From positions 1 through 64,000 of IMG/VR virus record IMGVR_UViG_3300027754_005989: a stretch of 64,000 nucleotides of DNA; one strand, given 5' to 3'. A program made the position numbers and the translations under genes. The stretch is from a virus. Shown piece after piece: positions 5,893-46,943 of the stretch. Positions within the stretch are counted from its first letter, which is position 1. Every line of letters begins with the position of its first letter. A model generated the notes under the pieces. It searched no databases, was not told the origin of the DNA, and saw only the letters and a program-made list of their open reading frames with translations.

Positions 5893-6551
5893 GGGGCATA
5901 GGTGTAAATTATTTTTGTTAATTCTGATGCTATCATGCCTTTTTTGGAATTACCCACAATAGAAATTGGTACATTTGTTGGCAAAGAGGCACCGGAAAAC
6001 AATTTTGTTAAAATATTTCCTATTTTGATTAAGAGGTAAAACCAGTTTGGCACTATGTCTTTGACAAGATATGCTCCGCCTAGATCATAGCCACAATTCA
6101 AGTACATCATTTTAACGGCCTCTGTACAATAAAATGCGTTCGGATCAGTAAAATTAAAATCATAGCTTGGGTCCATGTCCAAAAATCTCTTTATTTGATA
6201 ATCAAGACACAAAACATCTTCATTTTTTAAGTTTTTAAGTCTGTATACGCAGAATTTTGGTGTATCCCAATTGTCAAACCAGTCAATTATTCTTAATTTT
6301 CTGGTTCCCCAATCCGATACATCAATTGCATAGTATTCATCTTTTTCCACTAGGATCAAAGTGCCGTGCGAATAGGAAGAATCTGTGAATTTTTGAATCC
6401 ATCTGCCAAATGGTATTCCCAATGGTCCCTTAACATCAGATGCAGAATATACGATATCGCCTGTTTGAAGTCCGACTTCATTAAGTTTGGCTAAAATTTC
6501 TTTTCTCTTGGTGTAGAGCGGGCCGGGGACAAACATAAAAAAATTCCTCAA
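5889..6551 (-). CDS. Permuted papain-fold hydrolase (YiiX/NlpC-P60-like)
   Basis: 220 residues. GDIVYS at 31-36, SHGTLIL with His62, and FYCTEAV with Cys142 and Glu144 follow the order His before Cys that marks the circularly permuted NlpC/P60-like papain fold (YiiX/YaeF group). Such enzymes cleave amide bonds in cell wall peptides or lipids. The C-terminus has a hydrophobic stretch (NWFYLLIKIGNILTKLF). Ribosome binding site TGAGGAA precedes the ATG. It heads a three-gene coupled operon with two membrane peptides, which suggests action at the envelope, perhaps lysis or superinfection control. Confidence 0.65.
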   Translation of the reverse strand: MRNFFMFVPGPLYTKRKEILAKLNEVGLQTGDIVYSASDVKGPLGIPFGRWIQKFTDSSYSHGTLILVEKDEYYAIDVSDWGTRKLRIIDWFDNWDTPKFCVYRLKNLKNEDVLCLDYQIKRFLDMDPSYDFNFTDPNAFYCTEAVKMMYLNCGYDLGGAYLVKDIVPNWFYLLIKIGNILTKLFSGASLPTNVPISIVGNSKKGMIASELTKIIYTYAP

Positions 6552-6604: not shown

Positions 6605-7429
6605 ATGAACACAATTAGAATTATACTTGCTTTTTTTTGTTTTTTCTCGGCAGCTTTATGTTTTAGTCAATTTCGACCAACTATGCCTCCTCGTCCTCCT
6701 CAACCAGCGCCGCTACGACCTCCAGTTGGAAACATGCAAGGTGGTATGAGTGGTATGCAAGGTGGTATGAGTGGTATGAGTGGTATGAGTGGTATGAGTG
6801 GTATGAGTGGTATGAGTGGTATGAGTGGTATGAGTGGTATGAGTGGTATGAGTGGTATGAGTGGTATGAGTGGTATGCAAGGTGGTATGAGTGGTATGCA
6901 AGGTGGTATGATGGGCGGTGGTATGGGTGGAGGAATGATGGGTGGAGGAATGATGGGCGGTGGCATGGGCGGTGGCATGGGCGGTGGCATGGGCGGTGGC
7001 ATGGGCGGTGGCATGGGCGGTGGCATGGGCGGTAATCCCTTTGGGGGCTACATGCCGGGCAACATCATTCGCCCCACAGGAATGGGTGGTCCATACTCCG
7101 TAATTCCAATTCAAAGTGGATACATGTTGGGTGGCGGTGGTGGCATGATGGGGATGGGTGGCGGCGGAATGGGAGGAATGAGCGGCGGCATGGGCATGGG
7201 AGGAATGCAAGGCGGAATGGGTGGCATGATGGGCGGTGGAATGGGCGGTATGTCAGGTAATGGAATTTCTGGCATGAGTGGTTTTGGTCAGTTTGGCATA
7301 GGTGGCGGTGCATTTGGAATTGGAAATTCTGGCATGGGAGGCATGGGTTCTTTTCAAGGCCTTGGACAGATGGGTAGTGGTTTTGGTGGCATGAAAGGCT
7401 TTGGATTCAATGGTGGCTCCGGTTTGTGA
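6605..7429 (+). CDS. Secreted Gly-Met-Ser-rich repeat protein
   Basis: 274 residues from the ATG at 6605, chosen because GGGGGAC lies just upstream. An N-terminal signal-like segment (NTIRIILAFFCFFSAALC) is followed by a Pro-rich linker, about 15 GMS/GMQ units, then GGM units and a Gly-rich tail. Methionine is extraordinarily frequent. No enzymatic motif is present. It could be an exported matrix or coat protein, or a metal-binding or oxidant-quenching protein; Met-rich repeats are known in copper-handling proteins. The next gene starts on a GTG that overlaps the stop codon. Confidence 0.6.
   Translation: MNTIRIILAFFCFFSAALCFSQFRPTMPPRPPQPAPLRPPVGNMQGGMSGMQGGMSGMSGMSGMSGMSGMSGMSGMSGMSGMSGMSGMSGMQGGMSGMQGGMMGGGMGGGMMGGGMMGGGMGGGMGGGMGGGMGGGMGGGMGGNPFGGYMPGNIIRPTGMGGPYSVIPIQSGYMLGGGGGMMGMGGGGMGGMSGGMGMGGMQGGMGGMMGGGMGGMSGNGISGMSGFGQFGIGGGAFGIGNSGMGGMGSFQGLGQMGSGFGGMKGFGFNGGSGL
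6738..6911 (+). repeat. 9-bp tandem repeat GGTATGAGT
   Basis: A nearly perfect run of GGTATGAGT (Gly-Met-Ser), with a few GGTATGCAAGGT units, followed by GGCATGGGCGGT 12-bp units to about 7030. Copy number change keeps the frame. Confidence 0.9.
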
Positions 7430-21561: not shown

Positions 21562-21746
21562 TGATTACTTCTCCAATCAGATGACCAAGACCAAGACATA
21601 GACCAATACATAGACCTAGGCCAAGACAAAGATAAAGATAAAGACCCAGACCAAAACCTAGACCCAGACCTAGACCAGCATTCTGATTTTGAAGTATTAA
21701 ATCCAAAGCAATTGTTGTAGCTAAAGCTATTTGTTTTAAGGTTCAT
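21558..21746 (-). CDS. CWS-repeat microprotein, minus array unit 5
   Basis: 62 residues: head MNLKTNSFSYNNCFGFNTSK, then SECWS and a tail of alternating Ser with Arg, Gly, Leu, Trp or Met, ending SSDWRSNQ. It overlaps unit 4 and the next small gene by ATGA. Conserved Cys13 and Cys23 and the CFGF block mark the family. No known domain. Confidence 0.6.
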   Translation of the reverse strand: MNLKTNSFSYNNCFGFNTSKSECWSRSGSRFWSGSLSLSLSWPRSMYWSMSWSWSSDWRSNQ

Positions 21747-21988
21747 TGACTAGTGCTCCAATGTTTAGAACAAGCCCCAGACCCAGCCCCAGACCCAGAC
21801 CAAAACATAGAACTAGACCAAAAATTAGACAAAGACCTAGGACTAGACCAATGCCAAGACATATGCCTAGAACTAGACCTATACCTACACAAAAACCAAC
21901 ACATAGATCTAGAAGACCAGCATAGAGATTTTGTATTATTAAATCCAAAACAATAATTATTAGTATTACCAATTGATTTAAGGATCAT
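21743..21988 (-). CDS. CWS-repeat microprotein, minus array unit 4
   Basis: 81 residues: head MILKSIGNTNNYCFGFNNTK, SLCWS, then a longer and more diverged Ser/Trp/Arg tail with GSGAGSGA near the end and terminal SKHWSTSQ. It overlaps both neighbours by 4 bp. It is the longest unit of the minus-strand array. Confidence 0.6.
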   Translation of the reverse strand: MILKSIGNTNNYCFGFNNTKSLCWSSRSMCWFLCRYRSSSRHMSWHWSSPRSLSNFWSSSMFWSGSGAGSGACSKHWSTSQ

Positions 21989-22271: not shown

Positions 22272-22412
22272 ATATTTTTAATCCAATGAGCTGAACAAAA
22301 CCAAGACCAATGCCAAGACATAGACCAATGCCAAGACATAGACCAGCATTTTTATTTTGGATTATTAAAACCAAAACATTTGTTGTCTAAGGCTATTTGT
22401 TTTAAGGATCAT
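22268..22412 (-). pseudogene. Broken CWS-repeat unit 1 of the minus array
   Basis: It begins ATGATCCTTAAAACAAATAG like the other units, but a one-base loss in the SNN region shifts the frame and an in-frame TAA precedes the CWS segment. The tail (CWSMSWHWSMSWHWSWF, then SAHWIKNI) is still intact in its own frame and ends with the ATGA overlap to unit 2. It starts 5 bp after the RNA ligase gene. Confidence 0.55.
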
Positions 22413-32675: not shown

Positions 32676-32978
32676 ATGTCAGATGAAATTGTTATGCCAG
32701 AGATCAAGCACTCTGAAAAGATGCGAGATAGTTTGAAGAATTTCGTAGGCCAGCCAATCGCAATACTTTGTGCACGATTTAATTATCGTGGCATCTTGAG
32801 TCATGTTGGCGATGATCATCTTGTTTTGGCGCAGGCCCGTGCTGTGGAATCCAGCGGCGCAAGTAGCCAAGAACGACCTACTAATGAGGACGCTATAGGT
32901 TGCTCTATTTTTATTAGTCTTAATGCTGTCGAATTGGTATATTGGCCTCGTTGGGCATATGCCTCTTTGGATGACTGA
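32676..32978 (+). CDS. Hypothetical protein
   Basis: 100 residues from MSDEIVMPEIKHSEKMRDSL; an ATG 21 bp upstream (32655) is an alternative. The middle (IAILCARFNYRGILSHVGDD then HLVLAQARAVESSG) is beta-rich, like a small Sm-like barrel. It is followed at 29 bp by the next gene. No family recognised. Confidence 0.6.
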   Translation: MSDEIVMPEIKHSEKMRDSLKNFVGQPIAILCARFNYRGILSHVGDDHLVLAQARAVESSGASSQERPTNEDAIGCSIFISLNAVELVYWPRWAYASLDD

Positions 32979-33006
32979 TATAACTTCGACACTCAGGAAT
33001 TCACTC

Positions 33007-33615
33007 ATGAAGAACACGGGATATGAGGCTTGGAAGGCTCGTTTGGATTTTATGTCCAAAGAGTTTCCTTTTACAACTCATAAGCAGGGCATCGTCACGA
33101 TCAAAAATGAAGATGGTGCCCTTCATGCTGATGATCAACCTGCTTGGCGTTCTCCCACAAGAATCATGTGGTTTCAGAACAACAGAAAGAATGGCATAGA
33201 TGCGGACATATACGGAACAATCACCTATTACTACGAAAATATCCGTATTCCTCCTAAGTTTCATGCTGCCGTCAAAAATCCAAGCTTGCTCACCTTAGAG
33301 GAAGTCCTTGGTCATCCCAATCAAGAAGTTCGCTTCGTAGGGATGAAAATAATTGGGTTTGATGCGATTCGTAAAAGCAAGAACGCAAAAACCATTCACC
33401 GGGACAATAAAACCGGAGCAGAACTATTCCATGTCATGGGTATTTTTGAGGAACCCGTAGCCTTTGTATCGGTTCTCAACAGCACACCTGAGTCTGATGG
33501 GACATTTAAAAGATATTTTCTCTGCGTTCCATCGGACAAAAAAACTTGTCGGTCTGCAATAGCTTGGACCTTCAGGATGGAAGAAGATGAATATAGTCCA
33601 TCTGTGGAAACTTGA
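33007..33615 (+). CDS. DUF6745-like protein
   Basis: 202 residues from MKNTGYEAWKARLDFMSKEF with ribosome binding site CAGGAA. The blocks LHADDQPAWRSPTRIMWFQN and WFQNNRKNGIDADIYG, then LTLEEVLGHPNQEVRFVGM, recall the DUF6745 group (x-LHxDDxPA) found in phages and bacteria. Its function is not known. Confidence 0.55.
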   Translation: MKNTGYEAWKARLDFMSKEFPFTTHKQGIVTIKNEDGALHADDQPAWRSPTRIMWFQNNRKNGIDADIYGTITYYYENIRIPPKFHAAVKNPSLLTLEEVLGHPNQEVRFVGMKIIGFDAIRKSKNAKTIHRDNKTGAELFHVMGIFEEPVAFVSVLNSTPESDGTFKRYFLCVPSDKKTCRSAIAWTFRMEEDEYSPSVET

Positions 33616-33647
33616 GGTTTGTTACTATTTAAATTTAGAGGTATATT

Positions 33648-33977
33648 ATGACCAATTTTCAAGCTCGTCAAGGCGACATCATGTTTCGTAGCTGCGACTC
33701 TCCGAACATTACCAAGATGCGCAAAAAGAACGATAATATCCTTGCTCTGGGAGAGGTCACAGGACACTCCCACGCCGTAAAGTCCCATGAAGCAGGCACT
33801 TACGATAGTTATGTCGATGAAAACGGCGACATTTACATGTTGTCTACAGACAAAAACTTTGTCGTTGAACACGATGAACACAATCCTATTACCATGCCCA
33901 AGGGCGAATGGATTTGTGTCAGCAGGCAGATAGAGTTTGACCCTGTAGCAAACTCTCGTAGAATTGTTGCTGATTAA
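33648..33977 (+). CDS. Conserved phage protein (LALGEVTGHSH family)
   Basis: 109 residues. RQGDIMFRSC, LALGEVTGHSHAV and VEHDEHNPITMPKGEW form the recognisable pattern of a common small phage/plasmid protein of unknown function (QGDVL ... GExTGHxH ... HxEHxPIxLPxG). A terminator-like hairpin follows. Confidence 0.7.
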   Translation: MTNFQARQGDIMFRSCDSPNITKMRKKNDNILALGEVTGHSHAVKSHEAGTYDSYVDENGDIYMLSTDKNFVVEHDEHNPITMPKGEWICVSRQIEFDPVANSRRIVAD

Positions 33978-38725: not shown

Positions 38726-38908
38726 ATGATCCTTAAAGCAAATACTTATAGCAACAACAATTGTTTTGGATTTGATAATCCAAAATCAATTTGCTGGTCT
38801 ATTTCTAGGTCTTGGTCTTTGTCTTGGCTTTGGTCTTGGTCTTGGTCTTGGTCTTGGTCTAGGTCTGGGTGGTGGTCATCTCATGGAGCAGCAATATATG
38901 ATCCTTAA
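38726..38908 (+). CDS. CWS-repeat microprotein, plus array unit a
   Basis: 60 residues: head MILKANTYSNNNCFGFDNPK, SICWS, then a tail of Ser-Trp and Ser-Arg pairs ending SSHGAAIYDP. The stop lies 8 bp beyond the start of unit b, so the C-terminus differs from the usual HWSxN ending. Confidence 0.6.
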   Translation: MILKANTYSNNNCFGFDNPKSICWSISRSWSLSWLWSWSWSWSWSRSGWWSSHGAAIYDP

Positions 38909-39113
38909 ATCAAATTCATATAGCAATAACAATTGCTTTGGATTTAATACTCCAAAATCAAATTGCTGGTCTATGTCTAGGTCTAGGTCTTGGTCTAGGG
39001 ATTGGGATTGGGATTGGTCTATGTCTATGTCTATGGATTGGTCTTGGTCTAGGTCTATGTCTAGGTCTAGGTCTTGGTCTTTTTGGTCTAAACATTGGAG
39101 TGCCAATATATGA
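38898..39113 (+). CDS. CWS-repeat microprotein, plus array unit b
   Basis: 71 residues: MILKSNSYSNNNCFGFNTPK, SNCWS, a tail with RDWDWDW and MSMSM segments and the end FWSKHWSANI. It overlaps unit c by ATGA. Codons for the conserved Cys vary (TGT/TGC) between units while the residue does not, which argues that this frame is translated. Confidence 0.6.
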   Translation: MILKSNSYSNNNCFGFNTPKSNCWSMSRSRSWSRDWDWDWSMSMSMDWSWSRSMSRSRSWSFWSKHWSANI

Positions 39114-39343
39114 TCCTTAAAGCAAATACTTATAGCAATAACAGATGCTTTGGATTTAATACTCCAAAATCAAATTGCTGGTCTAGGTCTTGGTCTGGGT
39201 CTAGGTCTATGTTTAGGTCTATGTCTTGGTCTTGGTCTTGGTCTTGGTCTTGGTCTATGTCTATGTCTTGGTCTAGGTCTATGTCTAGGTCTATGTCTAG
39301 GTCTTGGTCTTTTTGGTCTAAACATTGGAGTGCCAATATATGA
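39110..39343 (+). CDS. CWS-repeat microprotein, plus array unit c
   Basis: 77 residues: MILKANTYSNNRCFGFNTPK, SNCWS, then the longest regular tail (WSWSWSWSWS, MSMSWSRSMSRSMS) and the end FWSKHWSANI, identical to that of unit b. It overlaps unit d by ATGA. Confidence 0.6.
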   Translation: MILKANTYSNNRCFGFNTPKSNCWSRSWSGSRSMFRSMSWSWSWSWSWSMSMSWSRSMSRSMSRSWSFWSKHWSANI

Positions 39344-39576
39344 TCCTTAAAGCAAATACTTATAGCAACAACAAATGTTTTGGATTTAAATATCCAAAAT
39401 CAAATTGCTGGTCTAGGTCTTGGTCTGGGTCTAGGTCTATGTTTAGGTCTATGTCTTGGTCTTGGTCTTGGTCTTGGTCTATGTCTTGGTCTAGGGATTG
39501 GTCTATGTCTAGGTCTTGGACTTATTCTTTGTCTAGGTGTGAGTGGTGGTCATCTCATTGGAGCAGTAGCATATGA
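39340..39576 (+). CDS. CWS-repeat microprotein, plus array unit d
   Basis: 78 residues: MILKANTYSNNKCFGFKYPK, SNCWS, a Trp/Arg/Met-Ser tail, then SLSRCEWWSSHWSSSI. It has a third Cys near the end. It overlaps unit e by ATGA. Confidence 0.6.
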   Translation: MILKANTYSNNKCFGFKYPKSNCWSRSWSGSRSMFRSMSWSWSWSWSMSWSRDWSMSRSWTYSLSRCEWWSSHWSSSI

Positions 39577-39752
39577 TCTTTAAAACAGCCGCTCATATTG
39601 ATAATTATTGTTTTGGATTTAATAATTCAAAATCTCTGTGCTGGTCTAATTCTAAATATAATTCTAATTCTTGGTCTTGGCTTTTTCCTTGGTCTCAGCT
39701 TTGGGTTAGATTTAAATCTAGATCTTGGTCTAGGTCTAGGTCTAGGTATTAG
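39573..39752 (+). CDS. CWS-repeat microprotein, plus array unit e (diverged, early stop)
   Basis: 59 residues: MIFKTAAHIDNYCFGFNNSK, SLCWS, then an irregular tail. A TAG interrupts the tail just before a stretch that would read WSTHWSNNQ, the normal C-terminus, in another frame, so this unit is slightly damaged. The gap to unit f is 26 bp instead of an overlap. Confidence 0.5.
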   Translation: MIFKTAAHIDNYCFGFNNSKSLCWSNSKYNSNSWSWLFPWSQLWVRFKSRSWSRSRSRY

Positions 39753-39778
39753 TGGTCAACTCATTGGAGTAATAATCA

Positions 39779-39901
39779 ATGATCCTTAAAACAAATAGCC
39801 ATAGCAATAACAGATGCTTTGGATTTAATAATCCAAAATCAAATTGCTGGTCTTGGTCTGGGGCTTGGTCTTGTTCTAAACATTGGAGCAGCAATCAATG
39901 A
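39779..39901 (+). CDS. CWS-repeat microprotein, plus array unit f (short)
   Basis: 40 residues: MILKTNSHSNNRCFGFNNPK, SNCWS, a tail of only WSGAWS, then CSKHWSSNQ. It is the last unit, 14 bp before the end of the convergent glycosyltransferase gene. Confidence 0.55.
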   Translation: MILKTNSHSNNRCFGFNNPKSNCWSWSGAWSCSKHWSSNQ

Positions 39902-46858: not shown

Positions 46859-46943
46859 GGAAAAGTATCCAAGAGGACAAAGGATTTTGACCGTAAGTCA
46901 AAAGGGCTGAGACCATTCGTGAGTTCGACTCTCACCTTTTCCA
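46859..46943 (+). tRNA. tRNA-Tyr (GTA), atypical anticodon loop
   Basis: A complete cloverleaf can be drawn: acceptor GGAAAAG/CTTTTCC, D stem TCC/GGA with GG in the loop, anticodon stem TTTGA/TCAAA, a 16-nt class II variable arm, T stem GTGAG/CTCAC with TTCGACT. The anticodon loop is CCGTAAG, giving anticodon GTA (Tyr). Unusually, position 33 is C instead of the near-universal T, and positions 32 and 38 (C and G) could pair and shrink the loop. CCA is not encoded. Confidence 0.8.

Follow-up and report, generated by a model that had tools for sequence, protein, structure and literature searches.

What do the small tandem genes at 38726-39901 encode, and on what do their products act? The window, by which we mean the whole stretch analysed, covers the opening 64 kb of a virus record of 144,066 bp. 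The original prediction had placed six consecutive small genes in this segment, each with a constant head and a tail in which Ser occupies every second position (Ser-X tail). All six ORFs were present on the plus strand (array A).

38726..38908, plus strand: unit A1, 60 aa
38898..39113, plus strand: unit A2, 71 aa, with GGAG 9 nt before its ATG
39110..39343, plus strand: unit A3, 77 aa, overlapping A2 through ATGA
39340..39576, plus strand: unit A4, 78 aa, overlapping A3 through ATGA
39573..39752, plus strand: unit A5, 59 aa, with a diverged head (MIFKTAAHIDNYCFGF)
39779..39901, plus strand: unit A6, 40 aa, with the shortest tail of array A

The ATGA overlap of stop and start codons, predicted for the whole array, was found at A2/A3, A3/A4, and A4/A5. 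It was lacking at A1/A2, which overlap by 11 nt, and at A5/A6, which are separated by a 26-nt gap. The end motif of A1 has lost one T (CATTGG), so that the gene reads 11 nt into A2, and A5 meets an early TAG ahead of its end motif, 26 nt short of A6. In A2 to A6 the GGAG lies exactly 9 nt ahead of the ATG and is encoded by the conserved end codons TGG-AGN. The Shine-Dalgarno of the next unit therefore lies inside the preceding gene, and conservation of the W-S end motif could be explained by this GGAG with no function of the peptide needed. A second array that the prediction did not mention was located at 22412-21558 on the minus strand and consists of five units, the first of which is dead (array B).

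22365..22412, minus strand: unit B1, dead through a head frameshift and a TAA
22167..22271, minus strand: unit B2, 34 aa
21985..22167, minus strand: unit B3, 60 aa (MFKANSFSNNKCFGL...)
21743..21988, minus strand: unit B4, 81 aa
21558..21746, minus strand: unit B5, 62 aa

Repeat DNA was still recognisable from B1 up to the start of B2. Across the record, unit matches were obtained at 12 places with E <= 1, eleven of them with E <= 1e-5, which exceeds chance.

The head shared by these units reads MILKxNxxSNNxCFGFxxPKSxCWS. Nine of its residues (K4, N11, C13, F14, G15, K20, S21, C23, and S25) were invariant among the 10 readable units of both arrays. Cys13 and Cys23 had been described as fixed although their codons vary. 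Both residues were indeed invariant and C13 was encoded by TGT and TGC; the codon of C23 was constant within the window and varied only after a sister phage was added. A codon test on 12 heads gave a pN/pS of 0.68 with a column-permutation p of 0.196. The sister phage, IMGVR_UViG_3300027754_005796 (172,833 bp), carried the same head at two loci with one intact unit at each, accompanied by decayed units and head-only remnants. The stretches L009 7771-8260 and L015 1288-1730 of this phage contained, between them, decayed units, orphan MILK heads that open following genes, and a unit without a head that runs into the beginning of a different gene. Units are thus often born and lost, and intact ones persist. 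A degenerate pattern search for the CFGF head returned the sister phage only, plus one unrelated gene seen twice. Since the tail type is common to many phages and the heads are lineage-specific, it is the Ser-X tail that characterises the family, and the CFGF/CWS head is of local occurrence. The head DNA also contains a palindrome, TTTTGGA...TCCAAAA (38764-38785 in the window and at the same place in other heads). A corresponding RNA hairpin was considered and rejected: it has six pairs, compensatory changes were not found, and one sequence was broken. The palindrome is maintained by the codons of F-G-F and P-K.

The tails behind the window heads had TCT in the Ser slot 128 times, and the X slot held W (72), R (31), and M (22). 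The predicted alternation of Ser with Trp, Arg, or Met accordingly stood for these tails, but the wider class also uses Gly. When the tail by itself was used as a DNA pattern, at least 119 stretches of GGTCTN-coded Ser-X tails were detected in IMG/VR, part of which are chance or pure repeats. Most of them, read in the Ser-X frame, open with a short head that is usually basic, continue with Ser-X repeats, and end at a stop. An ATG lay upstream in frame, at a median distance of 34 nt, in 181 of 225 tracts versus 17 in the GLGL frame, and the stop codon followed a median of 8 nt past the tract end. The GLGL frame, which seldom has a start and whose stop is more distant, was rejected. Variants within the tracts avoided nonsense codons. 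NAG occurred as GAG 46, CAG 22, and AAG 10 times, with no TAG among 78, and NGA as GGA 10, AGA 5, and CGA 2 times, with no TGA among 17, although one NGG codon in three begins with T. If hexamers are independent, finding no TAG would by itself have a probability of about 1e-14. Because nonsense codons are avoided and in-frame ATGs precede the tracts, we conclude from the sequence that the Ser-X tail genes are translated in this frame. Together with the three ATGA junctions, this agreed with the predicted coupling of translated tandem units. Searches of Pfam, PHROG, and the literature gave no description of Ser-X microproteins, as the original prediction had supposed. Contigs frequently ended inside or just before an array (L254, L261, L272, L286, L298, L311, and L313), which suggests that arrays break assemblies. 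The module is probably undercounted, because most of its genes carry no annotation or name and many contigs break off within arrays.

A scan of the same kind over 84,980 bacterial and archaeal genomes yielded 110 stretches (L137-L246), nearly all pure microsatellites. These share the GGTCTN periodicity of the phage tracts but have neither a short head with a start codon nor stop avoidance. A simple hexanucleotide microsatellite was therefore rejected as a description of the phage tracts, which are mixed and avoid stops, and a cellular origin of the class was rejected on the same scan. Four MAG contigs (L147, L194, L196, and L200) were exceptions among the cellular tracts and held arrays of the phage class; by title, two are Patescibacteria, one Halanaerobiales, and one Thaumarchaeota, and each of these MAGs also has a match to the partner family described below. 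They are possibly a hint of the host or misbinned phage.

We further investigated the neighbours of the Ser-X genes. By BLAST, 56 of 83 upstream neighbours belonged to one family, an uncharacterised gene of 85-115 aa. A reverse search, whose sole query was a close subset of this family and which made no use of the repeats, fetched 80 loci; several pairs among these are the same or near-identical, and the loci do not stand for 80 independent phages. In 75 of the 80, a Ser-X microprotein on the same strand started no more than 400 nt downstream. As for the remainder, two near-identical loci (L251 and L252) had Ser-X genes farther downstream, and three contigs end there. A stricter scan found Ser-X genes downstream in 61 of 77 cases, upstream in 2, and on the other strand in 4. 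No fusion of the partner with a Ser-X gene was seen in the loci scanned, and the partner gene was absent from 8 of 23 searched viral records with tail-pattern hits, several being fragments or chance repeats. The same pairing was present in GenBank, where UOF82383.1 (in MW202825) and UOF78858.1 (in MW202573), both from environmental phages, are Ser-X microproteins whose genes come immediately after one of the partner family. They are listed only as 'hypothetical protein' and differ from the window units in their heads (MILKRLG and MNAAIIRAGLD) and in a serine codon that is mostly TCG. In MW202825 (L247), which is flagged UNVERIFIED_CONTAM, a third Ser-X start at about 6021-6053 runs directly into AGATCGGAAGAGCGTCGTGTAGGGAAAGAG, which resembles an Illumina adapter.

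The AlphaFold2 model of the partner family, built with 48 members, had a pLDDT of 92 and consisted of a helix followed by strands. Its leading PDB matches in Foldseek were Sm/LSm proteins with TM scores of about 0.55-0.66. The E-values were modest (2.7e-3 here; the best values in Foldseek overall were 2.7e-3 and 4.3e-4), so the assignment relies on how consistently Sm/LSm proteins were matched, and the partner is predicted to adopt an Sm/LSm fold. No convincing Pfam or PHROG match was obtained, and the Sm/LSm/Hfq family models in Pfam were not hit. Compared to Sm, LSm, and Hfq proteins, the partner shares the predicted helix and five-strand Sm-type fold, with Sm and LSm chains as its PDB matches. 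It differs in an identity of only about 20%, in the lack of a Pfam match, and in its distribution, which here was confined to phages plus a small number of MAG contigs.

A diverged member of this Sm-like family was detected in the window itself.

32676..32978, plus strand: diverged Sm-fold homologue (profile E 2.4e-9; hhalign 95.8%)

Its model was weaker than that of the family (pLDDT 68), and the listed matches were again Sm/LSm. The phage thus has an Sm-fold gene in its genome, though not immediately upstream of its arrays: array A begins 5.7 kb downstream on the same strand, and array B is about 10 kb off. A profile search did not find the homologue in the sister phage. The window protein fetched 23 loci, ten of which (about seven distinct phages) had Ser-X genes within 8 kb, and at least two further records (G057 and G061) had them elsewhere in the record. 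The placement of array A recurred in two loci (L337 and L340), whose Ser-X genes followed the Sm-like gene on its own strand at a distance of 3.4-5.6 kb. In phages with Sm-like genes of the window type, some Ser-X genes had bridging heads of the form MILK.N.FS..CWS (MILRTNSFSQIECWSLF, MILKHNSFSQIECWAVF, MIIKTNIFSSVKCWS, and MILKQNNFSHIRCWN), and the window head, as a sequence, reads like MILK.N.FS...CWS with an inserted CFGF..PK stretch. Two genes of 230 and 109 aa adjoin the homologue at 32923-33977. The 109-aa gene corresponds to phrog_27831, of unknown function, and both recur near the Sm-like gene in other large phages.

The nature of the partner and the spread of the heads bear on the proposal of the original prediction that the units are RiPP-like precursors with a constant leader and a variable core. 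The constant head, the variable Ser-rich tail, and the two fixed Cys of the window branch resemble such a precursor. However, neither radical SAM nor LanC-like genes were found in the window phage or the sister phage, the two phages with this head, most members of the wider class have no Cys, and the constant partner is Sm-like and not a modifying enzyme. We therefore did not retain the proposal and regard it as very improbable. The antigenic role that the original prediction named beside it gained no support either, as nothing found spoke for or against antigenic variation.

The dominant serine codon differed between phages and was TCT, TCG, TCA, AGC, or AGT. Since TCN and AGY are not linked by one silent change, the Ser-X pattern is conserved as protein. 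This codon switch beside the same partner gene is the strongest single result of our analysis. It also bears on whether the DNA matters and the peptide is incidental, either through the GGTCT pentamer or through targeted mutation by a diversity-generating retroelement (DGR). GGTCT could act as a decoy for an enzyme recognising AGACC. In the TCT-dominated set, the third base of Ser was 96% constant (T), whereas the first base of X, at which changes alter the amino acid, was close to random, as such a DNA-level element might produce. GGTCT as a DNA site was rejected, since TCG, TCA, AGC, or AGT hexamers take its place beside the same gene in other phages. A DGR is contradicted by the lack of a reverse transcriptase in all 50 records searched and by the conserved adenines of AGC, AGT, and TCA serine codons, contrary to adenine-specific mutagenesis. 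Taken together, there is very little chance that a DNA-level element explains the arrays. Among eight near-identical pairs, X position 1 had changed 8 times and Ser position 3 twice, which are few events. The variable first base of X would fit diversifying selection for a mixed composition, and a targeted process other than a DGR may lie behind it.

The composition of the products was determined at 133 loci, with 219 ORFs in all. Their median length was 64 aa and their median net charge +10, and they consisted of 39% S, 14% R, 13% G, and 12% W. Within an ORF, X was about 27% W, 28% R, and 30% G, near 1:1:1, and the order of neighbouring X residues was near random. Six-residue words recurred within one ORF five times above expectation, and units on the same contig shared more words than unrelated units did. 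Between near-identical relatives there were six indels of 6, 6, 12, 18, 48, and 72 nt, all multiples of six, in agreement with the predicted change of length without frame loss. Thus, tails change by slippage and block exchange. Block repeats of this kind, together with the decayed units and head remnants, would also be left by a selfish or neutral slippage-prone repeat with a functionless product, kept open by its operon position. Such an element would not account for the avoidance of nonsense codons, nor for one protein pattern written in differing serine codons next to the same gene, and the cellular tracts, where pure repeats prevail, have no such heads. We consider it improbable.

We tentatively favour the reading, with a somewhat less than even chance of being right, that cationic and probably disordered Ser-X peptides act on RNA together with the phage Sm-like protein. 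Its basis, shown above, is the translated frame, the protein-level pattern, the pairing with the Sm-fold gene, and the six-base change of length. The microprotein would consist of a lineage-specific head and a Ser-X repeat with X mostly W, R, G, or M. Its target would be nucleic acid, probably RNA, with the phage-encoded Sm-fold protein taking part. The tail, encoded separately and variable in length, would bind or condense RNA as a sticker-and-spacer sequence in which Arg and Trp are the stickers and Ser and Gly the spacers. Disorder of the tail, physical contact with the Sm-like protein, and a role in infection would all follow from this proposal. Against it, the near-random order of X offers no binding site to point at, and the window arrays are not adjacent to their Sm-like gene. 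The modest Foldseek E-values, the missing hit to Sm models in Pfam, the sister phage and the eight other records in which the Sm-like gene was not found, and the lack of gene fusions among the loci scanned also speak against it. A protamine-like peptide that packages or condenses phage DNA would likewise be Arg- and Ser-rich and highly positive. However, high Trp content is unusual for genome-condensing proteins such as protamine, and the partner's fold is best known for RNA, so we think this rather unlikely.

The main rival to action on RNA is a host-directed cationic peptide rich in Trp and Arg, which would block some host process or perturb membranes and would share only its timing with the Sm-like neighbour. 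Small phage proteins frequently target the host, and the small size, the charge, and the abundant Trp and Arg are in keeping with such a role. But the heads have no evident signal or membrane segment, Ser makes up 39% of residues, and a partner gene that is constant across lineages is poorly explained by shared timing alone. This rival is doubtful, though a real contender.

The RNA reading may extend further, to a ribonucleoprotein module of many phage lineages in which the Sm-fold protein and the Ser-X array jointly form RNA-protein condensates during infection; we regard this extension as possible but on balance unlikely. In it, the residue order of Ser-X is near random and the composition is held. 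Arg-rich disordered tails are known from the RS domains of SR proteins and the RG tails of eukaryotic Sm proteins. The Ser-X microproteins resemble these in the alternation of Ser or Gly with Arg, in positive charge, and in association with a Sm-type protein. They differ in being separate tandem genes and in having Trp as frequent as Arg; this is a resemblance, and no homology is claimed. If condensates do form, the module would be a phage counterpart, reached by convergence, of Sm cores that bear Arg-rich tails. We found no description of protein sequences of this kind, in which Ser recurs at every second residue and Trp, Arg, and Gly share the places between at about 1:1:1. That such sequences are constantly paired, in uncultivated phages, with an Sm-fold gene gives a concrete, testable prediction on phage RNA biology. 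Moreover, a selected amino-acid pattern with a nearly free residue order bears on whether composition alone can be functional.

The window holds other repeats besides the two arrays. Collagen-like repeats of the Gly-Ala-Gln-Gly type (GGAGCTCAAGGCGATATA units) occupy 1-1125, and another repeat region with Gly/Met-coding units (GTGGTATGA and ATGGGCGGTGGC) lies at 6741-7221. The single tRNA gene of the window, a tRNA-Tyr, is located at 46859-46943.
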